Positions 2,847 through 5,804 of a stretch of 16,175 bases of DNA are shown here, in pieces. The stretch comes from Candidatus Eiseniibacteriota bacterium. GTDB lineage: Bacteria > Arandabacterota > Arandabacteria > JAGLYR01. Positions within the stretch are counted from its first letter, which is position 1. Each line of letters opens with the position of its first letter. The stretch is from NCBI GenBank assembly GCA_023132135.1, contig JAGLYR010000153.1, positions 1 to 16,175 on the forward strand, written 5' to 3'. A program made the position numbers and the translations under genes. Below the pieces are notes generated by a model that did not search any database, had not been told where the DNA came from, and was given only the letters and a program-made list of their open reading frames with translations.

Positions 2847-3246
2847 GAGGTGCGGGATGAAGCCCATCAGAGTCCTGGCGGTCATCGCTGTGCTATCTGC
2901 TGTCCTCGCCCTCACGACTACCTGTGGGGAAGACGACAAGCCAACACTGCCGGTGAACACCGCCCCAACCGCCTGCTTCACGGTCTCCCCCGACTCAGGC
3001 ACCACGGAAACGGTGTTCCAGTTCGACGCATCCTGTTCATCTGACAACAAGGGACTGACCTCAGATCTTGAGGTCCGCTGGGACTGGGAGAGCGATGGGA
3101 CGTGGGATACACCGTACTCGACCACTAAGACTGCGAGCCACCAGTACTCCACGACGGGGACAAAGACGATCACATTGGAGGTCAAGGACACGGGGGGCCT
3201 CACCGACCAGACGACAAGGCAAGTTCAAGTTACTGGCGACGGCCAC
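2847..3246 (+). repeat. PKD module repeat, copy 1 (paired with 4589-4982)
   Basis: From the ribosome binding site through the signal peptide and PKD domain, this segment is nearly identical to 4589-4982. A hand count over 2941-3240 against 4677-4976 gave 15 differences in 300 bp (about 95% identity), plus a 6-bp deletion in the signal peptide of the second copy. The similarity falls sharply at the start of the SUMF1 domains. Confidence 0.85.
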
Positions 3247-4119
3247 TTGGTCCTCGTCCCCGCGGGCACATTCATCATGGGGGACGGCGTAGCCTACTGT
3301 GGCCACGATGAGCACCAGGTAACCCTCACCCGGGACTTCTACATTGGCCAGTATGAGGTGACGAACGAGCAGTACCTCGTTGCGGTGCAGTGGGCGTATG
3401 ACAACGGGTACGTGAATGCGACCTCGTCGTCGGTCACCGACAACTTGGACGGAATGACGGTGGAGCTCCTGGATCTGGGTGATTATCACTCCGAGATCCA
3501 GTTCGCTGCAGGCGCGTTCAGCCTTCGCGAATCACCATCGGGTTCTGCACAGGGCGCGTACCCGGAGGGCTATGATCCGGCCGATCATCCGGTGAAGGTG
3601 GTTACCTGGTATGGTGCGGTGCGCTATTGTGACTGGCTGAGCATGCAGGAGGGGTTGCCGCGGGCGTATGAGCACAGCGGGGACTGGTCGTGCAACGGTG
3701 GGGATCCGTATGGGGCGGCCGGCTACCGGCTCCCGACGGATGCGGAGTGGGAGTATGCAGCGCAGTATAACGATGATCGGACGTATCCTTGGGGAGATGG
3801 ATCACCCAACAGTAGCAGGGCAAATTACTATTCGAACGTAGGCTGGACGACGCCGGTTGGGATCTATCCTGCGGCGCCTGTATCGCTTGATCTATACGAC
3901 ATGGCGGGGAATGTGTGGGAGTGGTGCGACGATGGGTACACCTGCAACTTGGGTACGTCTCCGCAGACGGACCCTGCGGGGCCGAGCTCTGGCTCGTCTC
4001 GGGTGCTACGTGGCGGCTCGTGGGCCCACTACGAGAGTGTCCTGCGCTGCGCCTTCCGGAGCTACCACACCCCGTCGCTCACGTACTACGTCGGGTTTCG
4101 TTGTGTCCGCAGTCAGTGA
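2857..4119 (+). CDS. PKD + SUMF1 (FGE-fold) lipoprotein with a DGR-type variable C-terminus
   Basis: 420 aa. Residues 1-22 form a signal peptide ending in a lipobox-like LTTT-C23, so it is a probable lipoprotein. Residues ~34-127 are a PKD domain (start NTAPTACFTVSP, then WDWESDGTWD, end ITLEVKDTGG). Residues ~131-417 are a SUMF1/formylglycine-generating-enzyme-like domain (VLVPAGTFIMG, EVTNEQY, YRLPTDAEWEYAA, YPWGDG, NVWEWC, SRVLRGGSW, GFRCVRS). The two catalytic cysteines that true FGEs carry shortly after RGGS are absent (W-A-H-Y follows), so it is probably a binding protein with the C-type-lectin-like fold, not a sulfatase activator. The GAGG at 2847-2850, 6 nt before the ATG, fixes the start. 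The last 23 variable residues look DGR-diversified. Its paralogue lies at 4599-5804. SUMF1 assignment is firm; surface display and ligand binding are inferred. Confidence 0.88.
   Translation: MKPIRVLAVIAVLSAVLALTTTCGEDDKPTLPVNTAPTACFTVSPDSGTTETVFQFDASCSSDNKGLTSDLEVRWDWESDGTWDTPYSTTKTASHQYSTTGTKTITLEVKDTGGLTDQTTRQVQVTGDGHLVLVPAGTFIMGDGVAYCGHDEHQVTLTRDFYIGQYEVTNEQYLVAVQWAYDNGYVNATSSSVTDNLDGMTVELLDLGDYHSEIQFAAGAFSLRESPSGSAQGAYPEGYDPADHPVKVVTWYGAVRYCDWLSMQEGLPRAYEHSGDWSCNGGDPYGAAGYRLPTDAEWEYAAQYNDDRTYPWGDGSPNSSRANYYSNVGWTTPVGIYPAAPVSLDLYDMAGNVWEWCDDGYTCNLGTSPQTDPAGPSSGSSRVLRGGSWAHYESVLRCAFRSYHTPSLTYYVGFRCVRSQ
4024..4116 (+). other. Putative DGR variable repeat VR1
   Basis: Starts after the conserved Trp codon (4021-4023) and ends at the stop codon. 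Thirteen codons have NNC form. Compared with 5703-5801, framework codons are identical (Leu-Arg-Cys-Ala at 4042-4053, Arg at 4057, Pro-Ser at 4072-4077, Thr at 4081), and from 4042 onward all differences lie in positions 1-2 of NNC codons, for example TTC/ACC, AGC/TAC and CAC/AGC. The last 23 bp (4093-4115) are identical in both genes and correspond to where an IMH would be. The GAG AGT pair at 4033-4038 does not fit the NNC rule, and VR1 is two codons shorter than VR2. No template repeat is present in the window. Confidence 0.7.
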
Positions 4120-4177
4120 GTACTAGAGAATGGATATTAGAAATTAGAGATCGGAAAAGAGCATTAGAGAAAGCAGC

Positions 4178-4222
4178 GGAGACGCCCAGGATGTTCGACT
4201 GACCGACTACCACGCAAGCTAG
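4178..4222 (+). pseudogene. C-terminal remnant of higB (RelE-family toxin)
   Basis: Directly upstream of higA, one frame reads GDAQDVRLTDYHAS then TAG (4220-4222). HigB toxins characteristically end in a sequence of the type GDA-x-DV-x-L-x-DYH, and higB normally precedes higA. Only the last 14 or so residues are recognisable. Upstream of 4178 the sequence turns into AT-rich filler with three ATTAGA copies (4136, 4143, 4163), and the frame is closed by a TAG at 4145-4147. The toxin gene has evidently been lost by deletion or replacement. The match is short, so the call rests on the motif plus its exact position. Confidence 0.65.
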
Positions 4223-4240
4223 TATCAGGAGGTGCTGCTC

Positions 4241-4528
4241 GTGTTGCCTGCGAATCGAATTCCGACGCATCCCGGCGAAGTGCTGAAGGAGGAGTTTCTC
4301 CTGTCCCTCGGAATGACCCAAGTCGCCCTGGCCGAACACCTCGGCGTTCCCGTGCAGCGGATCAACGAGATCGTGCGCGGGAAGCGCGGGGTGAGCCCGG
4401 AGACGGCATGGCTACTGGCCCAGGCGTTCGACACGACGCCCGAGTTCTGGCTCAACCTGCAGGCGCTTCATGACCTGGCCGTCAGCCGACCAAAGACCAG
4501 AATCAGGAAGGTGCGGAAGACCGCATGA
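4241..4528 (+). CDS. higA: HigA-family antitoxin (XRE helix-turn-helix)
   Basis: About 95 aa, starting LPANRIPTHPGEVLKEEFL, a characteristic HigA/VapI opening, with a helix-turn-helix in MTQVALAEHLGVPVQRINEI and the downstream GKRGVSPETAWLLAQAFDTT and FWLNLQ segments. HigA normally neutralises the RelE-like mRNase HigB and represses the higBA operon. I chose the GTG at 4241 because AGGAGG at 4227-4232 sits 8 nt upstream; a GTG at 4232 would overlap that site. The toxin gene upstream is reduced to its last codons (4178-4222), so this is an orphan antitoxin. It might still bind DNA, act as an anti-addiction factor, or be in decay. The gene sits between the two SUMF1 lipoprotein genes, same strand, 70 bp before the second. 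Confidence 0.9.
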   Translation: MLPANRIPTHPGEVLKEEFLLSLGMTQVALAEHLGVPVQRINEIVRGKRGVSPETAWLLAQAFDTTPEFWLNLQALHDLAVSRPKTRIRKVRKTA

Positions 4529-4588
4529 AACAGGATCGCTTGGGGAACTGCCGACCTATGCGACTTGTCAGCGACTTGCCCGAGATCG

Positions 4589-4982
4589 GAGGTGCGGGAT
4601 GAAGCCCATCAGAGTTCTGGCAGTCGTTGCTGTGCTATTTGGCGTCCTCACGACTACCTGTGGGGAAGACGACAAGCCAACACCGCCGGTGAACACCGCT
4701 CCAACCGCCTGCTTCACGGTTTCCCCCGACTCAGGCACCACGGAAACGGTGTTCCAGTTCGACGCATCCTGTTCATCTGACAAGAAGGGACCGGCCTCAG
4801 ATCTTGAGGTCCGTTGGGATTGGGAGAGCGACGGGACGTGGGATACACCGTACTCGACCACTAAGACTGCGAGCCACCAGTACTCCACGACGGGGACAAA
4901 GGCGATCACATTGGAGGTCAAGGACATGGGGGGCCTCACCGACCAGACGACAAAGCAAGTTCGAGTTACCAGCGACGGTCAT
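4589..4982 (+). repeat. PKD module repeat, copy 2 (paired with 2847-3246)
   Basis: About 95% identical to 2847-3246 at the DNA level by hand count over 300 bp. It covers the GGAGG ribosome binding site, signal peptide and PKD domain. Homology drops after the Asp-Gly-His codons, where the SUMF1 domain begins. Confidence 0.85.
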
Positions 4983-5804
4983 CTGGAGATGGTGCTCGTT
5001 CCAGCGGGCACGTTCACGATGGGTTCGGACCCGGACGAGGGGAGTTCCCGTGAGCGTCCGGAGCATCAGCCCTACGTCAGTGCCTTCTACATGGATGTGT
5101 ACGAGGTGATGAACGCAGAGTACTGCGAGGCGCTGAACGACGGTCTTGGATACTGGAACGGGTCGGACGTAGTGGAGTCGTCGGGGGACAACACGTTGTA
5201 CCTGGAGGTTTCGGATTCGGATTGCCGAATTGACCGTTCCGGTTCTTCGTTTGTAGTGCAGTCCAGGTATGAGGATCATCCGATGGTTGAGGTATCGTGG
5301 TATGGAGCGGCGGCGTACTGCAACTGGCGGAGTCAGAGGGACGGGTTGACGCCGTGTTACGACACGAGCACGTGGGCTTGTGATTTCGGAGCGGGTGGGT
5401 ATCGGTTATCGACGGAGGCGGAGTGGGAGAAGGGTGCTCGTGGTTCGTCGGATGAGCGGACGTATCCGTGGGGAGAGGGGATAGATTGCACGCGGGCGAA
5501 CTACTATGGCTGTCATGGTGGGACGGTTCCGGTAGGCTCATACGAGAGTGGGGTGTCGCCGTACGGTTTGTACAACATGGTAGGGAATGTGTGGGAGTGG
5601 TGCAACGATTGGTACAGCAGTTTATATTATGGATCTTCGCCGGAGAGCGACCCAATGGGGCCATCCAGTGGCTCGTCTCGGGTGTTGCGCGGTGGGTCGT
5701 GGAGCTTCTACGGCGGCAGCGGCCTGCGCTGCGCCACCCGGTACAGCAGCGGCCCGTCGAGCACGTTCTACATCTTCGGGTTTCGTTGTGTCCGCAGTCA
5801 ATAG
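4599..5804 (+). CDS. PKD + SUMF1 (FGE-fold) lipoprotein, second paralogue, DGR-type variable C-terminus
   Basis: 401 aa from the ATG at 4599, chosen because GGAGG (4588-4592) lies 6 nt upstream and the start matches the paralogue; a longer frame from 4470 would overlap higA and lack a ribosome binding site. Residues 1-20 are a signal peptide with a lipobox-like LTTT-C21. Residues ~32-125 are the PKD domain. Residues ~129-398 are a SUMF1-like domain (MVLVPAGTFTMGSDPDEG, HPMVEVSWYGAAAYCNW, YRLSTEAEWEKGARG, YPWGEG, NVWEWCNDWY, SRVLRGGSW, GFRCVRS). FGE catalytic cysteines after RGGS are missing (S-F-Y follows). The SUMF1 body is clearly more diverged from the first gene than the N-terminal module. 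The variable tail spans residues 369-393. The hairpin at 5811-5847 follows the stop. Likely a surface-exposed ligand-binding lipoprotein; the ligand is unknown. Confidence 0.88.
   Translation: MKPIRVLAVVAVLFGVLTTTCGEDDKPTPPVNTAPTACFTVSPDSGTTETVFQFDASCSSDKKGPASDLEVRWDWESDGTWDTPYSTTKTASHQYSTTGTKAITLEVKDMGGLTDQTTKQVRVTSDGHLEMVLVPAGTFTMGSDPDEGSSRERPEHQPYVSAFYMDVYEVMNAEYCEALNDGLGYWNGSDVVESSGDNTLYLEVSDSDCRIDRSGSSFVVQSRYEDHPMVEVSWYGAAAYCNWRSQRDGLTPCYDTSTWACDFGAGGYRLSTEAEWEKGARGSSDERTYPWGEGIDCTRANYYGCHGGTVPVGSYESGVSPYGLYNMVGNVWEWCNDWYSSLYYGSSPESDPMGPSSGSSRVLRGGSWSFYGGSGLRCATRYSSGPSSTFYIFGFRCVRSQ
5703..5801 (+). other. Putative DGR variable repeat VR2
   Basis: Begins after the Trp codon at 5700-5702 and ends at the stop. 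Seventeen NNC codons are interspersed with framework codons identical to those of 4024-4116. Just upstream (about 5670-5699) the two genes differ mainly by synonymous changes, so the mode of variation switches at the Trp codon. The 23-bp terminal block 5778-5800 equals 4093-4115. This pattern is expected when AAC codons of a template repeat are randomised at adenines during retrohoming. Confidence 0.7.

Follow-up and report, generated by a model that had tools for sequence, protein, structure and literature searches.

Two paralogous genes in the window diverge at their C-terminal loops in an unusual way, and the question that they raise is whether these loops were rewritten by a diversity-generating retroelement (DGR). 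The window is the whole 16,175-base contig that we analysed (C61), part of a 3.40-Mb MAG of 345 contigs that is 96.4% complete. Gene 1 (2857–4119, + strand) and gene 2 (4599–5804, + strand) share one architecture: a signal/lipoprotein-like N-terminus that is hydrophobic and contains a cysteine, a PKD domain (PKD_4; 9.5e-10 in gene 1, 2.5e-9 in gene 2) and an FGE-sulfatase, C-type-lectin-like domain (PF03781; 6.7e-52 and 2.7e-56, respectively). The start of gene 2 was set at the ATG at 4599, which is homologous to the start of gene 1; the 444-amino-acid open reading frame opens upstream, at 4470. The near-identical signal/PKD halves lie at 2857–3231 and 4599–4970, next to diverged FGE cores. 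A HigA-family antitoxin (TIGR02607, 9e-28; 4232–4525, + strand) lies between the two genes; we noticed no toxin open reading frame beside it in the intergenic gap, and the antitoxin may be an orphan. A DUF1016_N protein is encoded close to the contig edge (8–541, + strand). The paralogues are mosaic when compared codon by codon. In the N-terminal/PKD part, identity extends to 102 of 118 aligned codons; the FGE core has diverged, and similarity resumes over the last ~30 codons. The contrast between the first two parts suggests that gene conversion or the shuffling of domains has recently taken place between the paralogues.

The sequence-only reading had proposed that both genes end in DGR-type variable repeats (VRs). 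Putative VR1, which runs from TCG TGG to AGT (4018–4113, + strand), has its variable codons at 4024–4092, and putative VR2 (5697–5798, + strand) has them at 5703–5777, with NNC-only differences in both. The variable codons are followed by an identical 23-base tract, GGGTTTCGTTGTGTCCGCAGTCA, at 4093–4115 in gene 1 and 5778–5800 in gene 2 (both + strand); it stands where an IMH-like 3′ boundary would be expected and may act as the IMH. We aligned 4042–4113 with 5724–5798 by codon after removing the extra TTC codon at 5775–5777. The alignment contains 14 base differences, seven in position 1, seven in position 2 and none in position 3. They sit in eight codons that are NNC in both genes, and the framework codons are base-identical, so that the earlier description of eight differing codons that all keep C and change only in positions 1 and 2 is borne out. 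The synonymous differences reported upstream of TCG TGG are also present, four in number (CTA/TTG, CGT/CGC, GGC/GGT and GGC/GGG). The statement that no synonymous difference follows up to the end of the genes is correct from CTG (4042/5724) to AGT (4111/5796) but not for the final Gln codon, where CAG and CAA differ (4114/5799). The VRs differ in length by two codons, as noted before, one of the additional codons preceding CTG and the other (TTC, 5775) preceding GGG. GAG AGT, given as a breach of the NNC rule, is a genuine exception, and relatives carry exceptions in the same place (GAG TAT in a third paralogue on contig C304 and TTC GAT in MAG DeMMO4_6); being shared among family members, they would be expected if the template codon at this site were AAT, and known templates include AAT codons (PMC6328139). 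Over the Trp–Gly loop, 11 of the 12 codons that encode different amino acids end in C in both genes, compared with 7 of 104 for the upstream stretch of the FGE domain (Fisher p = 4.6e-10), and codons for the same amino acid are base-identical in 11 of 12 cases, compared with 51 of 91 upstream (p = 0.015).

Mere codon preference of a G+C-rich genome could in principle fill a loop with C-ending codons; the third positions of both genes are G/C-rich, and FGE loops elsewhere are in several cases mildly enriched in C. We therefore scored each FGE loop for C-ending codons given its amino acids and the codon usage of the same gene. The gene 2 loop has 20 such codons where 8.2 are expected (z = 5.5, rank 2 of 62 FGE loops), the gene 1 loop has 16 where 8.7 are expected (z = 3.4) and the loop of the C304 paralogue gives z = 4.3. 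In the coding sequence that precedes the loops, about 1/4 to 1/3 of the codons end in C, and the all-C pattern is absent from other parts of genes 1 and 2. The genome also has an unrelated FGE gene (C80), in whose loop C is not enriched (z = −0.9). Codon preference is thus a highly improbable explanation. We rejected the same z-score as a stand-alone detector of DGRs because it is unspecific: some DGR genomes scored low for the sampled gene, some high scorers had no RT that we could find, and NNC-enriched FGE loops also occur in genomes with no detected DGR RT (for example, loci L114 and L104). Very strong C-ending enrichment was seen in the FGE loops of L114 (Armatimonadetes bin.262; z = 6.9) and of L156 and L157, both on IMG/VR contigs (z = 4.9 for L156). 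A search for an RT and a template found none for these loci, and they are candidates for further orphan or remote DGR targets.

We searched the genomes holding FGE homologues for reverse transcriptases (RTs). In several of them, FGE homologues lie next to RTs that carry the DGR motifs IGNLTSQ and RYMDD, with template repeats adjoining. We also scanned for template/variable pairs, allowing mismatches at adenines of the template only; this returned pairs with 23 adenine mismatches and 1 other in genome G099, 19 and 0 in G111, 17 and 1 in G118, and 23 and 1 in G123. The template on contig C86 of genome G058, which adjoins its RT, encodes GGSWNNNATNLPCANRNNNNPSNTNNNNGFR, and its AAY codons fall on the codons that vary in the window: 11 of 13 AAY sites differ, compared with 2 of 13 other sites (p = 6e-4). 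Mismatches lie at a template A in 16 of 19 cases when this template is aligned with VR2 over 60 bases and in 20 of 29 when it is aligned with VR1 over 86 bases. A search of 386 genomes with an AAC-filled template pattern gave the G058 template as its sole match.

The closest homologue (65% identity) comes from MAG DeMMO4_6, labelled Gemmatimonadetes. This MAG holds two FGE genes (L176 and L178), and their loops fall into the 6- and 7-codon classes seen in window genes 1 and 2. The codons of these loops mostly end in C, and the framework carries third-position differences (CTG CGC versus CTT CGT). Between gene 1 and its DeMMO4_6 homologue, 9 of 9 framework codons are identical, compared with 52 of 91 upstream. 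The third FGE paralogue of the window's own genome (L023, 9676–9795; G000:C304) has a more degraded loop pattern, with GGT, GCT and TCG codons; both it and gene 1 have GAG NNT in the loop. Contig C304 ends about 300 bases past this paralogue, and inspection by eye of those last 300 bases revealed no template-like sequence.

Where, then, is the core that would act on these genes? The sequence-only reading had suggested searching the genome for a template repeat and a DGR RT; neither was found in the incomplete MAG, and the only template that fits is the heterologous one of G058. Searches with RVT_1 and a three-sequence DGR-RT profile detected no DGR-type RT (IGNxxSQ motif) in this incomplete assembly. 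The only RT that they brought up, a 533-amino-acid UG9 defence RT (PADLOC 1.5e-120; L001, 1081–2679; G000:C168), was rejected as not of the DGR type. No template repeat was recovered from the MAG by BLASTN, by a degenerate pattern with three mismatches, by a search for a template-like peptide through stops or by the template/variable scanner. The DeMMO4_6 genome gave no DGR RT, and neither did seven genomes of the same class, in which the clear RT matches had group-II-like or other non-DGR motifs. Viral contigs matched neither the degenerate VR-framework pattern nor the AAC-filled template pattern. The window's MAG encodes three strong PF05635 (Avd-related) proteins, which we considered as candidate Avd; the stretches scanned around them held no RT or matching template. 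DGR cores in other MAGs lie on contigs of 3.6 kb (G099) and 5.1 kb (G111) or have the RT cut by a contig end (G088). Given that cores elsewhere are frequently found on short contigs or at the ends of contigs, little weight attaches to the absence of one from a MAG of 345 contigs, and large-scale DGR mining is known to miss remote targets in fragmented assemblies (PMC8144416). The core was either missed by assembly or binning, or lost, or acts in trans.

Loss is the more probable of these alternatives to an unassembled core: the genes would be former targets whose DGR has since disappeared from the lineage, leaving static loops. Neither of the two genomes that share the loop pattern yielded an RT or a template, the C304 paralogue has the more degraded loop pattern, and Treponema denticola strains that lack RT and TR still hold target genes (PMC4891356). 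Against loss, the block contains no synonymous change, whereas about 44% of same-amino-acid codons upstream have changed, which argues for recent rewriting; and the missing core, as set out above, counts for little in so fragmented a MAG. We regard loss as possible, though doubtful, and this estimate is a share of our overall confidence that a DGR made the loops. Alternatively, both the window's lineage and DeMMO4_6 might keep target pairs with no resident RT, diversified in trans by a core that resides on a mobile element or in some other organism of the community, a scenario that we consider improbable.

An explanation without any DGR would have gene conversion equalize the 3′ ends of the paralogues and strong diversifying selection then change the amino-acid-altering positions alone. 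Conversion is plausible, because the N-terminal halves are near-identical too. Yet at equal rates per position, the probability that none of 14 changes falls in position 3 is about 0.003 ((2/3)^14). In most of the changed codons two bases differ, and C is retained in all of them; the variable codons coincide with the AAC codons of a real template (G058), and conversion leaves unexplained a framework common to another species (DeMMO4_6). We consider this account improbable. Also speaking against a DGR is the two-codon gap in length between the VRs: to produce it would take either a second template or an indel.

The proposal of DGR-type VRs thus holds for the repeat pattern, its statistics, the DGR-linked homologues, the fit to the G058 template and the pair in a second species, and falls short in that the genome's own template and RT were not found. 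On the NNC-only differences, the statistics of the two genes themselves, the fit to a real template from another genome and the link of the family with real DGRs, we think it quite likely that the loops were made by a DGR, whether or not its core is still present; that they belong to an active DGR is something we infer. The window probably holds two DGR target genes that either lie far from their core or have been left without one. In the mechanism that we propose, a template RNA with AAC codons and one AAT codon would be reverse-transcribed by the DGR RT with misincorporation at adenines; the template to be sought would resemble TGCGCCAACCGGAACAACAACAACCCGTCGAACACG. The mutated cDNA would then replace a segment that starts near TCG TGG and reaches the 3′ tract GGGTTTCGTTGTGTCCGCAGTCA, so that NNC codons would change at positions 1 and 2 only and the framework would stay base-identical. 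The core would lie outside the assembly, on an unassembled or unbinned stretch that leaves the targets remote, or would since have been lost.

The fold was assigned by matching the sequence to FGE-fold proteins of solved structure, among them TvpA: the FGE domain aligns with human FGE and with the DGR variable protein TvpA (2Y3C, 6e-24), and the PF03781 and 2Y3C matches both span the C-terminal RGGSW...GFR loop of the FGE/CLec domain, where the VRs had been placed from the outset. The fold family is thus shared with formylglycine-generating enzyme (PF03781). Active FGE has its catalytic cysteine pair in a GGS(Y/W)-x-C-x4-C segment (PMC6328139). The cysteines of the human segment SYMCHRSYCYRYR (MCHRSYC) are unmatched at the aligned positions of the window proteins, which have SWSFYGGSGLR (gene 2, aligned to human FGE chains) and SWAHYESVLR (gene 1, read straight off its sequence). 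Enzymatic activity as FGE is therefore not expected, and the proteins are more likely to be binders. The two genes probably encode secreted, lipid-anchored PKD plus FGE-fold (C-type-lectin-like) binding proteins. Since the variable residues of FGE-fold DGR proteins of known structure are solvent-exposed and make up the ligand site (PMC6328139), the most likely role by analogy would be that of a surface-displayed, rapidly changing binding protein. With this pair, a bacterial class of which few members have been sampled gains probable hypermutable surface proteins, and the pair shows that VRs can be recognized by comparing just two paralogues, with neither RT nor template at hand. Metagenome mining that requires a repeat plus an RT is bound by its design to overlook remote targets (PMC8144416), and detecting orphan or remote VRs from sequence only could therefore enlarge the set of known targets.

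Set beside known systems, the two genes are probably a new target pair of an already known kind of system, not the first of a novel one. The framework LPCANRNNNNPSNTNNNNGFR of the G058 template is near-identical to the window loops in protein and partly so in bases, whereas that template adjoins its RT and the organism lies outside the window's class. The DGR of a Chthoniobacter flavus MAG (G099; L116 and L153) likewise has an FGE-fold target, an AAC-rich template and the same loop layout; there, unlike in the window, a single 3.6-kb contig carries the target along with its template and RT. Compared with TvpA and the paralogous targets of T. denticola, the window genes add a PKD domain, and RT and template were not located in their genome. 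Common to both is a lipoprotein with an FGE-subtype C-type-lectin fold and a C-terminal VR (PMC4891356; 2Y3C match). In T. denticola, too, there are several targets, many of them lipoproteins, with some remote from the core and some in strains that have neither RT nor TR (PMC4891356).
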